A stretch of 64,000 nucleotides of DNA. It comes from Sphingomonas sp. GTDB taxonomy: Bacteria > Pseudomonadota > Alphaproteobacteria > Sphingomonadales > Sphingomonadaceae. Location of the stretch: positions 1-64,000 of the forward strand of contig NZ_JANYGG010000079.1 of assembly GCF_025362505.1 (NCBI RefSeq), written 5' to 3'. The notes below the pieces were generated by a model. It saw only the letters and a program-made list of their open reading frames with translations. It did no database searches and had not been told where the DNA came from. The stretch's first letter is position 1; each line of letters begins with the position of its first letter. Of this stretch, positions 52,872 to 61,294 are shown in pieces. The position numbers were made by a program, and so were the translations under genes.

Positions 52872-53729
52872 TCAGGCGGCGAGGAGGCGATCGGCGGGGT
52901 CGACCATGCCCGGGTCGATATCGGGCAATTGGTCGAGTTCGGCGTAAATATCCGGCAGGTCGCCGCGCGTCACCAGGTCGAGAATGTCCTGAAAGCGGTC
53001 GATGACGAAGTAATTCTGCTGGAACGCATCGGTCCGGTAGCGCGTGCGGAGCACCCGTTTCAGATCGAAGCCGAACCGCTTTGGCATGTCGCTTTCGAGG
53101 CTGTAGTGCGCCTCGCCGAAGCTCGACAGGATCCCCGCGCCGTAGATCTTGAGGTCGCCATCCTCGCGCGTCAGGCCGAATTCGACGGTGTACCAGTACA
53201 GCCGTGCGAGCCGGTTGAGCGCGCCATGATCGAGCGACTCGAGCCCGACGTGACCGAGCGCCTGCATGAAGTCGGCGATTTCGGGTTGGGCGAGCATCGG
53301 GACATGGCCGAACACATCGTGGAACACGTCGGGCTCCTCGAGGTAATCGAGCTGGTCGGGCTTGCGGATGAAGTTGCCGGCGGGGAAGCGGCGTTCGGAC
53401 AAATGCTTGAAGAAGATGTCGTCGGGGACGACGCCGGGCACCGATACGACCGTCCAATTGCTGCGCTTGTGGAGTCGCTCGTTGAGTTCCTCGAGGTCGG
53501 GCACCCCCGGGTGGCTGAGGCTCAGCACGTCGAGCCCCTCCTCGAACGACGCGGCCGCGCGACCGTGAAGCAGCTTCCGCTGCCGGTCGAACAATGTATC
53601 CCAAACCATATGGTCCTCGGCCGTCAGCCGGTCCCAATGCTGCGGCACGGTCCAGTCGGCGGCGGCGCCCGGCGGCGGGGTCGGCGAGGCCAGCGCGCCA
53701 TGTTTCTCGTGAATAACTTGATCGGTCAT
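52872..53729 (-). CDS. phhA: Phenylalanine 4-monooxygenase
   Basis: PhhA hydroxylates phenylalanine to tyrosine using a pterin cofactor and iron. At 285 residues it is the bacterial, regulatory-domain-free type. The iron ligands are His137 and His142 (FHDVFGH) and Glu183 (YTVEFGL). The ATG at 53729 has GAGAGAGG before it; ATGs at 53744 and 53759 are possible but spaced poorly. Its transcript begins behind a Tyr-codon leader and attenuator (see 53821-53931). pcd/pterin recycling is not adjacent. Confidence 0.95.
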   Translation of the reverse strand: MTDQVIHEKHGALASPTPPPGAAADWTVPQHWDRLTAEDHMVWDTLFDRQRKLLHGRAAASFEEGLDVLSLSHPGVPDLEELNERLHKRSNWTVVSVPGVVPDDIFFKHLSERRFPAGNFIRKPDQLDYLEEPDVFHDVFGHVPMLAQPEIADFMQALGHVGLESLDHGALNRLARLYWYTVEFGLTREDGDLKIYGAGILSSFGEAHYSLESDMPKRFGFDLKRVLRTRYRTDAFQQNYFVIDRFQDILDLVTRGDLPDIYAELDQLPDIDPGMVDPADRLLAA

Positions 53730-53760
53730 CAAAGCCTCTCTCATGTCGTTCGAAAGCAAT

Positions 53761-53791
53761 AAAAAACCCCGCCGGGGAAAGCCTGGCGGGG
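53761..53791 (-). terminator. Attenuator terminator before phhA
   Basis: On the minus strand CCCCGCC (53791-53785), an 11-base loop and GGCGGGG (53773-53767) are followed by six T. It lies 31 bases after the leader peptide stop and 31 bases before the phhA ATG, so it controls read-through into phhA. Confidence 0.85.
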
Positions 53792-53836
53792 TGTCGAATT
53801 CAGCGGCTGTTACGCGCGCGTCAGTCGTGTCCCGCC
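53785..53836 (-). promoter_or_regulatory. Alternative (antiterminator) pairing arms
   Basis: GGCGGG in the leader coding region (53836-53831, directly after the Tyr codons) is complementary to CCCGCC in the 5' arm of the terminator (53791-53785). Pairing of these would disrupt the terminator when a ribosome stalls at the Tyr codons and leaves the leader arm free. Confidence 0.55.
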
Positions 53837-53931
53837 GGGGTGGCGTAATAATAGGTGGCCGATTTGCGCGCGGCTCCGCTGCGTTTCGCGGACGCGATGC
53901 GGGTGTTTCCGAGGGAAAGCGCGGCTGTCAT
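53821..53931 (-). CDS. Tyrosine-codon leader peptide for phhA (candidate attenuator)
   Basis: This 36-codon reading frame starts at ATG 53931, with GGAG five bases before it, and ends TGA at 53821. The peptide contains MTAALSLGN near its start and ends ARKSATYYYATPAGHD, with three consecutive Tyr codons (TAT TAT TAC, 53853-53845). A T-tailed terminator and an alternative pairing arm follow. This is the layout of ribosome-mediated attenuators (trpL, pheL). Low charged Tyr-tRNA would stall the ribosome and let transcription pass into phhA, whose product makes tyrosine. It is too short for usual gene callers and lies 39 bases after aroB, on the same strand. Confidence 0.75.
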   Translation of the reverse strand: MTAALSLGNTRIASAKRSGAARKSATYYYATPAGHD

Positions 53932-53970
53932 GCGAGCTCCATAGAGTGGCTCACGGGATCCCGTCAAGCG

Positions 53971-55065
53971 TCAGCGCGCTTCGTCGAGGAAGTCGCGAAC
54001 CTCGTCCAGCTCGACACTCCTGTCGACGAACGCCTGTCCGATCCCGCGCGCGAGGATGAACGGCAACCGCCCGCCCTCCTTCTTCTTGTCGGTCATCATC
54101 GCCTCGACCAGCGCCGCGCCCGACGCCGTGACGCCCGCTTCGGCAAGGCTCGTCGGCAGGCCAACTTCGGCGAAATGCGCGTACACCCGGGCCGCGTCTT
54201 CCTTGCTGCACACCCCGCGCGCGGCCGAAAATTGGAACGCCAGCGCGGTCCCGGCGGCAACCGCCTCGCCGTGGAACAGCCAATCCGAAAACCCCGTCTC
54301 CGCCTCCAGCGCATGGCCGAAGGTATGGCCCAGATTGAGCAGCGCCCGCCGCCCCTTGGTCTCGCGCTCGTCGGCGGCGACGACCTTCGCCTTGCCCGCG
54401 ACCGCGGTGGCGATGGCGTAGCGCCGCGCTTCGGGCTCGCCGGCGATCACCGCCGCGCCATTGCCCTCGAGCCACGCGAAGAACCCGGCATCCTCGATCA
54501 GCGCATATTTGGCGATCTCGGCATAACCCGCGCGGACATGCCGCGGGTCGAGTGTCGCGGTGCAGGCGGGGTCGATCAGCACCAATTCGGGCTGGTGGAA
54601 CGCGCCCACCAGATTCTTGCCGGCGGGAACATTGATCGCGGTCTTGCCGCCGACCGAACTGTCGACCTGCGCGAGCAGCGAGGTCGGCACCTGGACATAG
54701 CCGCATCCGCGATTGACGATCGACGCGGCGAACCCAGCCAAGTCGCCGATTACCCCGCCGCCCAGCGCGATGAGATGATCGCTCCGCTCGATCCCAAGCT
54801 CGAGCAGCCGGTCGACCAGTGTCGCAAGCCCGCTCCAGCTTTTGCTGGCCTCGCCCGGCGGCATGATGATCGGTACCGCGTCGAGCCCGCCCAGCCCGGT
54901 CACGAACCGCTCGCCAAGCGCCGCCCAGACATGCTCGTCGGTGACGACGATCAGCCGCCCGTCGCGCGCGAACGAGAATAGCCGCTTCCCCGCGCGGTCG
55001 ATCAACCCGTCCTCGATCACCACGTCATAGGCGCGGGCGCCGAGCGCGACCGGGATGACGGTCAT
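53971..55065 (-). CDS. aroB: 3-dehydroquinate synthase
   Basis: AroB converts DAHP to 3-dehydroquinate, step two of the shikimate pathway. At 364 residues it is standard length. PPGEASKSW, ALGGGVIGDLAGFAAS, TSLLAQVDSSVGGKTAINV and a metal-binding HGEAVAAG are present. It is last in the aroQ-aroA-pheA-aroC-aroB operon, four bases after aroC. The Tyr leader and phhA follow. Confidence 0.96.
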   Translation of the reverse strand: MTVIPVALGARAYDVVIEDGLIDRAGKRLFSFARDGRLIVVTDEHVWAALGERFVTGLGGLDAVPIIMPPGEASKSWSGLATLVDRLLELGIERSDHLIALGGGVIGDLAGFAASIVNRGCGYVQVPTSLLAQVDSSVGGKTAINVPAGKNLVGAFHQPELVLIDPACTATLDPRHVRAGYAEIAKYALIEDAGFFAWLEGNGAAVIAGEPEARRYAIATAVAGKAKVVAADERETKGRRALLNLGHTFGHALEAETGFSDWLFHGEAVAAGTALAFQFSAARGVCSKEDAARVYAHFAEVGLPTSLAEAGVTASGAALVEAMMTDKKKEGGRLPFILARGIGQAFVDRSVELDEVRDFLDEAR

Positions 55066-55069
55066 GCCG

Positions 55070-56140
55070 TCATCCCCCGCACTGCGCGCGATGGAGCAAT
55101 TTCTGGTCGGCCAGCACCAGCGCCATCATCGCCTCGACCACCGGCGCGCCGCGAATCGCGACGCACGGGTCGTGGCGGCCCTTGGTCACGATCTCGGTCT
55201 CGGCGCCGCTCTGGTCGATCGTCTGCACCGGGGTCATGATCGACGAGGTCGGCTTGAACGCGACCCGCACCACCACGTCCTGCCCGGTGGATATGCCCCC
55301 CGCGACCCCGCCCGCATGGTTCGCCAGGAACTGCGGCCCGCCAAATCCGGCGCGCATCGCGTCGGCATTCTCCTCGCCGCGCAGCCGGGCAGCGGCGAAC
55401 CCGTCGCCGATCTCGACCCCCTTGACCGCGTTGATCGACATGCAGGCCGACGCCAGTTCGGCGTCGAGCTTGGCATAGAGCGGTGCGCCCCAGCCCGCCG
55501 GCACCCCGCTCGCGACGCACTCGATCACCGCGCCCAGTGACGACCCCGCCTTGCGCGCATCATCGACCATCGCTTCCCATCGCGTGGCGGCCCCGGCATC
55601 CGGACAGAAGAACGGGTTCGCCCCGATCGCCTCGGCATCGAACGCGGCGCGGTCAATCGCGTCGCCGCCAAGCTCGACCAGATAGGCCCGGATCGAAACC
55701 TCGGGCACGACCAGCCGTGCCACCGCTCCCGCCGCGACCCGCGACGCGGTCTCGCGCGCACTGCTCCGCCCCCCGCCGCGCCAGTCGCGGTGGCCATATT
55801 TCGCATCATACGCATAGTCGGCGTGACCCGGCCGATAGGCCCCGGCGATCGCGCTGTAATCCTTGGGCCGCTGGTCGACATTGTCGATCATCAGCGAGAT
55901 TGGCGTACCCGTCGTCCGCCCCTCGAACACCCCCGACAGGATGCGTACCTGGTCGGGCTCCTGCCGCTGCGTCGTAAAGCGCGACGTACCCGGCCGTCGC
56001 TGGTCGAGCCACGGCTGGATGTCGCTCTCCGACAGCGTGATCCCCGGTGGGCACCCATCGACCACCGCGCCGATCGCCGGCCCGTGACTCTCGCCCCACG
56101 TCGCAAAGCGGAACATTCGCCCGAAGCTGTTGACGCTCAT
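55070..56140 (-). CDS. aroC: Chorismate synthase
   Basis: AroC makes chorismate from EPSP using reduced FMN. At 356 residues it is full length and starts [52 protein letters not shown] and a late KGRHDPCV block are intact. ATG at 56140 overlaps the pheA stop by four bases. A 69-codon upstream extension is a shadow of the pheA frame. Confidence 0.97.
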
Positions 56141-56670
56141 GCGCCCGCTTTCCGAAACAGCGCAAAGCGGGTCGCATTGTCGGGATCGTCGTGCATGTCG
56201 CGCTTCAACACCGCCAGCCCATAGGCCGTCGCCGCCGCTTCCGACGCCAGCACCGCCCGGTCGCACCGGTCGAGCGCCGCCGCCGCCACCGCCGTATTGC
56301 TCGCCTCCTCGGTCGTCACACCAAGCGCGGCAAGATGCTCGGCGCATTGCGCCAGCGCGACGGGGTGCGATGCAATCACCGTGACCTCATCCAGCGCCAC
56401 GCCCGGAAGCGCAAGCAAATGCACGCGCACGGGCATCACGCGCTCGTCGATTACCGCCAGCCGATCATCGGCCAGCAGTGCCGCAATCCCCGGCACCTCC
56501 CCCGCCCGGCTGTTCCGCATCGGCAGCACCCCAAGCTCGGCCGCGCCCGACGCCACCGCCTCGGCCACCGCGGCGAAATCGACGAACGGGATCGCCACTT
56601 GTCCGGGCGCGAACATCAGCGCCGCCTCGTGGGCAAAGGCGCCGGGCGCCCCAGCGTAGGCAATCGTCAC
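56137..56670 (-). CDS. pheA: Prephenate dehydratase, catalytic domain only (no ACT domain)
   Basis: This 177-residue protein covers only the dehydratase (PDT) domain that converts prephenate to phenylpyruvate for Phe synthesis. It begins [20 protein letters not shown], and the catalytic TRF is at 167-169 (DNATRFALF). The motif normally read as PxENS is PMRNS (Arg52), a change at a conserved site. The C-terminal ACT domain that gives Phe feedback inhibition is missing. The GTG start at 56670 overlaps the aroA stop. Activity seems likely from TRF, but the Arg change deserves a test. Confidence 0.85.
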
Positions 56671-61051: not shown

Positions 61052-61171
61052 CGACTTGGCCTGGACTGTTGCCTCACCGCACCGCGCGGCGCTGAAAATA
61101 GCGCAATGGGATCCCAAATGGTGCTTTTGGCTTGACCGCGCCCCGCCTATTGACGCACAGGCTGACCCAAC

Positions 61172-61234
61172 ATGACCACCGCCGCCACCTCGAAGACCAC
61201 CACGATCATTACCCCACGGGGGAATATCGGCTGA
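61172..61234 (+). CDS. thrL: Threonine/isoleucine-codon leader peptide (thrL-like)
   Basis: This 20-codon frame reads MTTAATSKTTTIITPRGNIG. Seven Thr and three Ile codons are present, with a TTTII run at codons 9-13. It ends TGA at 61234, and a T-tailed terminator follows 27 bases later. This is the composition of thr operon leaders (thrL) in gammaproteobacteria. Low Thr-tRNA or Ile-tRNA would stall the ribosome and allow thrA transcription. The Shine-Dalgarno is weak (AGG at 61159). Confidence 0.75.
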   Translation: MTTAATSKTTTIITPRGNIG

Positions 61235-61260
61235 TCAACGACGTCACGACCGAATTTCCG

Positions 61261-61294
61261 ACCCGCTCCCCAACCACGGCGAGCGGGTTTTTTT
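61261..61294 (+). terminator. Attenuator terminator before thrA
   Basis: ACCCGCTC (61261-61268), a 12-base loop and GAGCGGGT (61281-61288) form an eight-base stem followed by more T (seven in all to 61294). It stands between the Thr/Ile leader and the thrA start. GGGGA in the leader (61219-61223) could pair with TCCCC at 61267-61271 as a competing structure. Confidence 0.85.

Follow-up and report, generated by a model that had tools for sequence, protein, structure and literature searches.

Sequence evidence for a tyrosine-codon transcription attenuator upstream of phhA in Sphingomonadaceae

Upstream of the phenylalanine hydroxylase gene phhA in Sphingomonas sp. (contig NZ_JANYGG010000079.1, positions 1 to 64,000; this whole 64,000-nt stretch is called the window here), a short reading frame with a run of Tyr codons is followed by a T-tailed hairpin. 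Does this leader set the expression of phhA by the charging of Tyr-tRNA? Such a device had been proposed in an initial annotation made from the letters of the window alone. Having compared the locus with its counterparts in related genomes, we consider it very likely that phhA is controlled by a Tyr-specific, ribosome-mediated transcription attenuator, a judgment that rests on sequence, with no expression, RNA-end, or ribosome data behind it.

Results

Elements of the phhA leader in the window

The proposed elements could be read directly from the window and are located in Table 1. The leader frame of 36 codons encodes MTAALSLGNTRIASAKRSGAARKSATYYYATPAGHD, and its three consecutive Tyr codons, the GGCGGG arm, the T-tailed terminator (ACCCCGCCAGGCTTTCCCCGGCGGGG-TTTTTT), and the phhA start just past it were all found where the annotation had put them. 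The terminator fold was equaled by 1 of 200 shuffled sequences, and the fold joining arm 2 to the 5' arm of the terminator (-23.7 kcal/mol) was moderately better than its shuffles (z -2.11; 6/200 as good). The whole leader was no stabler than shuffled sequence (z -0.53; 58/200 as good), and the hairpin is absent from the list returned by a simple terminator scan. Contamination of the assembly from which the window comes is estimated at 5.89%.

Table 1. Features of the phhA leader region, in window coordinates
Feature	Coordinates	Strand	Basis
Predicted -35 element TTGACG of a promoter for the leader	53962..53967	-	TTGACR spacing in window-type loci
Tentative -10-like element TATGGA, 18 nt downstream of the -35 element	53938..53943	-	Sequence; spacing argument
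Leader ORF, 36 codons plus stop (ATG 53931; TGA 53823-53821)	53821..53931	-	Sequence; Tyr-codon leader frame kept in 65/69 genus loci
Tyr control codons TAT TAT TAC	53845..53853	-	Sequence; Tyr positions across 65 genus leaders
Arm 2, putative antiterminator 5' arm (core GGCGGG 53836-53831 plus CC 53839-53838)	53831..53839	-	Fold of 53840-53778; cognate pairing
Arm 3, partner of arm 2 (terminator 5' arm CCCGCC 53790-53785 plus GG 53783-53782)	53782..53790	-	Pairing; folds
Intrinsic terminator (hairpin 53792-53766, T run 53766-53761)	53761..53792	-	-18.6 kcal/mol, z -3.05
phhA, phenylalanine 4-monooxygenase, regulated gene (ATG 53729)	52872..53729	-	PF00351, TIGR01267, 1ltu match
aroB, upstream neighbor, context only	53971..55065	-	PF01761 and PF24621

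The leader is conserved in the genus and sparse outside it

We examined 71 genomes of the window's genus (g1, which we take to be GTDB Sphingomicrobium), 65 of which carry phhA, at 69 places. A leader was scored when a short frame in front of the terminator had Tyr codons among its final 15 codons, and by this measure a Tyr-codon leader and a terminator precede phhA together at 65 of the 69 loci. When at least two Tyr codons were required, the count was 61/69, against 0/79 for loci of named Sphingomonas, Sphingopyxis, and related bacteria. A terminator-like hairpin was present at 66/69 loci; no terminator was found at the other three phhA loci of the genus (L009, L010, and L119). One leader was missed by the script and is, by eye, a 66th for the genus (L146, ...AYRYACKGRAMETS). 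Outside the genus, the attenuator was found in ten genomes belonging to two other genera of the family (eight in g54 and two in g45). The model used in this search, R1, also matches plain terminators and other hairpins, and a Tyr attenuator was counted only if Tyr codons were present and phhA followed.

Examples of the genus leader peptides are MTRRTISAVYYYPDEVGIG, ...ATAAPVSYYYIREAGTD, and MTAHVAIAAPYYRHEVGIG. By eye, their N-terminal part varies freely in sequence and length, and the Tyr codons and arm 2 are kept. Counted back from the stop codon, Tyr occupies position -8 in 55, -9 in 53, and -10 in 43 of the 65 genus leaders, and the last Tyr lies exactly seven codons from the stop in 51/65. 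The Tyr codons are TAT rather than TAC in a ratio of 145:22, compared with 167:209 in the phhA genes of the same organisms, a strong preference for which we have no firm explanation. The nearest relative (L006, PhhA 89% identical) keeps the frame, two Tyr codons, and the terminator, with an arm of only four contiguous pairs. Alignment across sphingomonads had been suggested as a check on the proposal; within the genus, at least, sequence comparison bears out the frame, the Tyr codons, their spacing, and the terminator, and the pairing arms co-vary. A similarity search with leader DNA across the family gave only three weak partial matches in 148 other genomes.

In a quickly built PhhA tree, the attenuator is present in both PhhA lineages, and its origin and losses remain unresolved. 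The tree includes only about one in four of the named loci and takes its labels from the script, which marks L035 and L146 as lacking the attenuator; yet L035 and L006 are one contig, and Tyr codons can be seen by eye in L146.

A predicted leader promoter and a probably leaderless start

The leader had been suggested to receive read-through from the Phe-making operon that ends in aroB. This is possible in the window but is not needed, because the gene upstream of the leader differs among the few relatives in which it was recognized by eye (aroB in L006 only; L007 and L008 have an aroE-like gene, L017 a tRNA) and a promoter-like sequence stands at a near-constant distance before the leader. As scored, 13 of the 14 loci of the window's type have TTGACR 29 to 31 nt ahead of a leader ATG; the remaining locus (L007) has two adjacent ATGs, of which the script chose the second, at a distance of 34 nt, and if the first is taken instead (31 nt), the figure is 14/14. 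Among the other 61 loci, 51 have an [AG]TTCA block 30 to 34 nt before an in-frame ATG, often followed, by eye, by a GATAAG-like block. These sequences suggest a promoter that belongs to the leader itself. A generic promoter scan did not find the -10-like TATGGA.

Ordinary sigma-70 spacing would place the start of transcription at the leader ATG or a few bases from it. We infer from this spacing that the transcript probably begins at or near the ATG, i.e., that it is leaderless and has no Shine-Dalgarno site. The "good ribosome site" of the initial annotation does not fit this picture: there is a GGAG 5 nt before the ATG in the window, but it overlaps the predicted -10 region, and motifs resembling a Shine-Dalgarno sequence precede the leader ATG in only 13/75 loci (2/14 of the window type).

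The pairing arms co-vary and occur in two registers

Arm 2 is a segment about 7 to 15 nt past the last Tyr codon, complementary to arm 3 at the foot of the terminator. We compared the pairing of each arm 2 with its own arm 3 against 5,000 permutations of partners, with the 65 loci collapsed to 61 distinct ones. The helix score was 20.3 for cognate arms versus 16.1 for permuted arms (sd 0.4, maximum 17.8), and at least seven contiguous pairs were formed by 53/61 cognate arms versus 28.0 after permutation (sd 3.3, maximum 38); these tests are not corrected for relatedness. Changes on both sides of the helix distinguish the loci, as in GAGGTTGG:CCAACCTC, GAGGCTGG:CCAGCCTC, GCGGTGG:CCACCGC, and GCGATGG:CCATCGC (L146), and such double changes preserve pairing yet alter the encoded residues (E-V-G, E-A-G, A-V-E).

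Two registers of the arms can be told apart. In the window type (14 loci) and class II (16 loci), arm 2 (GGCGGG, CCGGGCGGG, or GGTGGGG) pairs with the 5' arm of the terminator itself; at least six contiguous pairs are formed in 13 of the 14 window-type loci, the exception being L006. In class I (45 loci), the end of arm 3 lies no more than 2 nt from the first base of the terminator in 36 of 42 distinct loci, so that arm 3 abuts the hairpin. In 45 of the 75 loci, then, the antiterminator helix for the most part lies against the terminator without overlapping it, which corrects the simple picture of overlapping arms. RNAalifold recovered the terminator alone, and no helix between arms 2 and 3, because the registers differ between classes; since one alignment cannot hold both, we relied on the permutation tests. 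The alignments comprised 57 of the 65 loci (A1, after near-duplicates and four loci with odd leaders were dropped) and subsets of 21 (A2) and 14 (A3) loci. Within the 14 window-type loci, cognate arms formed hardly more pairs than permuted ones (7.86 versus 7.36), because their sequences are alike.

Snapshot folding is consistent with a ribosome-gated switch

Equilibrium folding with ribosome masks kept the terminator in nearly every state, and its probability fell below 0.5 with the ribosome stalled on the first Tyr codon in only 6/65 leaders. The method is uninformative here, since the proven trp attenuator of Escherichia coli, run as a control, likewise failed to separate its on and off states. 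Because folding of the whole leader and equilibrium folding did not separate the states, we used snapshots in which the transcript stopped short of the terminator's 3' arm, with the length covered by the ribosome assumed.

These snapshots agree with the geometry proposed for the window, where a ribosome on the first Tyr codon was to free the GGCGGG arm and one at the stop codon to cover it: the predicted sequestration of the terminator 5' arm is 0.67 in the former position and 0.22 in the latter. It exceeds 0.5 on stalling in all 14 window-type loci (mean, 0.72 versus 0.24 at the stop codon) and in all 16 of class II (0.81 versus 0.22); the E. coli trp leader gives 0.62 versus 0.005. In class I, the 5' arm is hardly sequestered (0.23 stalled versus 0.17 at the stop codon; above 0.5 in 8/45), and the effect falls on the 8 nt before it (0.83 versus 0.10; above 0.5 in 44/45). 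That the flush helix of class I interferes with the terminator sterically or kinetically is our inference and has not been demonstrated.

PhhA as the probable route to tyrosine

The phhA product matches PF00351 (1.1e-45) and scores 306.2 bits against TIGR01267 (cut-off, 264.75), identifying it as a bacterial phenylalanine 4-monooxygenase. It aligns with 1ltu at an E value of 3.1e-85, and the aligned stretch includes HDVFGH and YWYTVEFG, which we take to be the iron-ligand motifs. A gene for pterin-4a-carbinolamine dehydratase is present in the same genome. TyrA (PF02153), the usual tyrosine enzyme, had no match over cut-off in the window's genome and passed the cut-off in 4 of the 71 genus genomes, with sub-threshold matches in eight more; across the family, it was found in 344/397 genomes. 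All 14 control genomes were matched by the search, and 13/14 at the stricter limit used for the family count. Because TyrA is not found over cut-off, PhhA is probably the enzyme that makes tyrosine, and the main route to it, in the window's lineage, its activity being inferred; these bacteria appear to make tyrosine as animals do, by hydroxylating phenylalanine. In Dyella japonica, there is genetic support for PhhA as the route to tyrosine, with no good TyrA candidate, according to the portion of the source available (PMC7311316). The initial annotation had called control by Tyr-tRNA logical for PhhA, and the absence of TyrA supplies the metabolic reason.

The attenuator does not follow TyrA in a simple way. 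No TyrA match was found in any of the ten attenuator-bearing genomes outside the genus, and three of the four genus genomes with TyrA (G161, where the match is split over two stretches, G164, and G207) also have an attenuated phhA copy; the fourth (G177) has two copies without the attenuator. Outside the genus, 42 genomes lack TyrA and 39 of these have phhA, which is preceded by the attenuator in the ten genomes already mentioned and not in the other 29; loss of TyrA alone is therefore no predictor. The last nine of the 29 loci were checked more simply, for a hairpin and for Tyr pairs, and showed no stable hairpin, two hairpins of -1.7 kcal/mol, and three occurrences of TAYTAY without a terminator. 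The attenuator was absent from TyrA-lacking genera other than g1, g45, and g54.

Several further observations concern these pathways. Three genus genomes that are at least 99% complete (G175, G184, and G187) show no phhA match and no TyrA above its cut-off and may be Tyr auxotrophs or use another route. The phhA match contains one internal stop codon in G166, G169, G431, and G044, from an interruption or from overrun past the gene end. One contig (G431:C1) has a phhA attenuator at both ends (2030-2129 and 3023846-3023945), possibly through assembly overlap, and the phhA copy at its start is broken into two matches. Prephenate dehydratase usually has a C-terminal ACT part; the window's copy (56137-56670, minus strand) has only 177 residues, matches PF00800 alone, and covers just the first two-thirds of a 283-residue NCBIfam model. 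This part thus seems to be missing, and phenylalanine synthesis may lack that feedback.

Other leaders in these genomes

The window holds a second attenuator-like unit 7.4 kb away, with the Thr- and Ile-coding leader MTTAATSKTTTIITPRGNIG* at 61172-61294 (plus strand) and a gene start at about 61331. It has the layout of the phhA leader (20 codons, control codons near the end, a GC-rich T-tailed hairpin, and a gene start soon after) and differs in its Thr and Ile codons. The gene that follows resembles aspartokinase-homoserine dehydrogenase; in the 520 codons scanned, NCBIfam models of both kinds match, none over cut-off. By eye, similar leaders precede what is apparently the same gene in G199, G215, G177, G166, G169, G168, G196, and G296, and two of them (L196 on G196:C23 and L204 in G168) are also rich in Met, e.g., ...STMTAMMMMMTAMAGGSG, which would fit sensing of methionine as well. 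The Thr leader is already an Rfam family, as given in the part of the source available (PMC3766115). The sequence GGATCCC, which directly follows TTGACR in L001, L006, L007, L008, and L231 and is common to phhA leaders of two genera, recurs upstream of the Thr/Ile leader at 61109-61115. Elsewhere in the window's own genome, a leader rich in Leu, Val, and Ile codons (L201, G000:C121:1296-1394; ...PRALLLTLVLIPMHDGAAIG) and a terminator precede a gene whose N terminus looks, by eye, like ketol-acid reductoisomerase.

Discussion

Three features expected of an attenuator are met here: a leader ORF with control codons, an intrinsic terminator before the gene, and a gene for synthesis of the amino acid concerned, in this case tyrosine (activity inferred). 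A fourth, an arm that competes with the terminator, is met in the folding model for the window type (14/14) and class II (16/16). In the mechanism that we propose, transcription would begin at the promoter that belongs to the leader, and the leader would be translated by a ribosome. If Tyr-tRNA is charged, the ribosome would reach the stop codon and cover arm 2, so that the terminator forms and phhA is off; if it is uncharged, the ribosome would stall on the Tyr codons, and the free arm 2 would pair with the 5' arm of the terminator, which then could not form, and phhA would be transcribed. PhhA would then convert phenylalanine to tyrosine. Translation of the leader, stalling, antitermination, and the response to tyrosine are all inferred.

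One alternative is that the hairpin does no more than end transcription of the aroQ-aroA-pheA-aroC-aroB operon, with the Tyr frame a chance occurrence and phhA transcribed from a separate promoter. In the window, the terminator indeed comes after aroB, many GC-rich T-tailed hairpins occur in these genomes, and R1 finds bare terminators as well. The relatives with a different upstream gene (L007, L008, and L017), however, keep the leader, the Tyr codons, and the terminator; the leader and terminator stay together at nearly all genus loci, and the arms co-vary, which makes this explanation very improbable. We also think it very unlikely that the leader encodes a small functional protein in which the Tyr run is a protein motif and the terminator only ends the message. 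The frame is conserved, and the Trp leader peptide of Sinorhizobium meliloti is reported, in the portion of the paper available, to act in trans (PMC7298713); but the N-terminal half of the phhA leader peptide is unconserved and of varying length (by eye), conservation sits in the Tyr codons, the distance to the stop codon, and the pairing arm, and the double nucleotide changes keep the pairing at the expense of the residues.

Direct sensing of tyrosine or Tyr-tRNA by an RNA structure, as in a riboswitch or T-box, would dispense with translation altogether. Tyrosine T-boxes are named for other bacteria in the available part of one source (PMC1262725). The window, however, has no Rfam match at gathering score, a permissive scan of 53720-53980 returned only six sRNA families, all below threshold, and no T-box, and a riboswitch would have no need of a Tyr-codon frame at a fixed distance from its stop codon; on the strength of these family-model scans and the conserved frame, we find this possibility scarcely credible. 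The Tyr-codon attenuator remains our reading of the locus. We extend it, speculatively and with the expectation that the extension is rather unlikely to hold as a whole, to the proposal that a Tyr-specific, probably leaderless attenuator marks lineages that lack TyrA and make tyrosine by PhhA, and that antitermination in class I works without base-pair competition, the flush helix leaving the hairpin too little slack to close inside the exit channel of the polymerase.

If the attenuator reading is right, tyrosine joins the amino acids served by leader-peptide attenuators, and the way phhA is regulated points to a biosynthetic role here for PhhA, an enzyme often regarded as catabolic. The family also offers a natural series, with overlapping and abutting antiterminators and with and without TyrA, in which to study how attenuators arise and change register.

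Among known systems, the trp attenuator of E. coli (trpL; RF00513, Trp_leader) shares the leader ORF with control codons, the arm that is freed by stalling and pairs with the 5' arm of the terminator, and the intrinsic terminator, and it behaves like the phhA leader in snapshot folding. It has Trp codons and serves trp genes, whereas the leader described here has Tyr codons, serves phhA, and is probably leaderless; of three sequences scanned, Trp_leader matched the E. coli control and not L012 or L235, so there is no Rfam relation. The E. coli pheA leader, with its Phe codons, likewise concerns an aromatic amino acid, but its gene acts upstream of phenylalanine and not at the step from phenylalanine to tyrosine. 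Control of E. coli pheA by attenuation is stated in the part of the source available (PMC5343134). The trpLE(G) attenuator of S. meliloti is also alphaproteobacterial but is Trp specific and controls trpE(G); its RNA starts with the ATG of the leader frame and is possibly a small leaderless mRNA, according to the accessible part of the report (PMC7298713), which resembles the start predicted here from spacing.

Tyrosine-making genes have been linked to attenuation before: putative attenuators were proposed ahead of tyrA operons, e.g., hisHb > tyrA in Agrobacterium (PMC1173090), but these are structure predictions before tyrA, and no Tyr-codon leader is named in the part of that source available. 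For phhA itself, the same partial sources describe PhhR/TyrR control and propose control of the Lrp type (PMC1173090, PMC5343134), i.e., DNA-binding regulators of a catabolic phhA, whereas here an RNA device would govern a probably biosynthetic one. Amino acids with a listed leader-peptide attenuator are His, Leu, Thr, Trp, Ile/Val, and Phe (PMC3766115), and RNA-level control by tyrosine is listed for T-boxes (PMC1262725), again in the portions of these papers available. Neither a Tyr-codon leader nor a phhA attenuator was among the matches listed in our search of the open-access literature, which did not cover the survey by Vitreschak and others (2004). The attenuator mechanism is thus already known; its Tyr specificity and its phhA target are new, as far as the literature searched shows.
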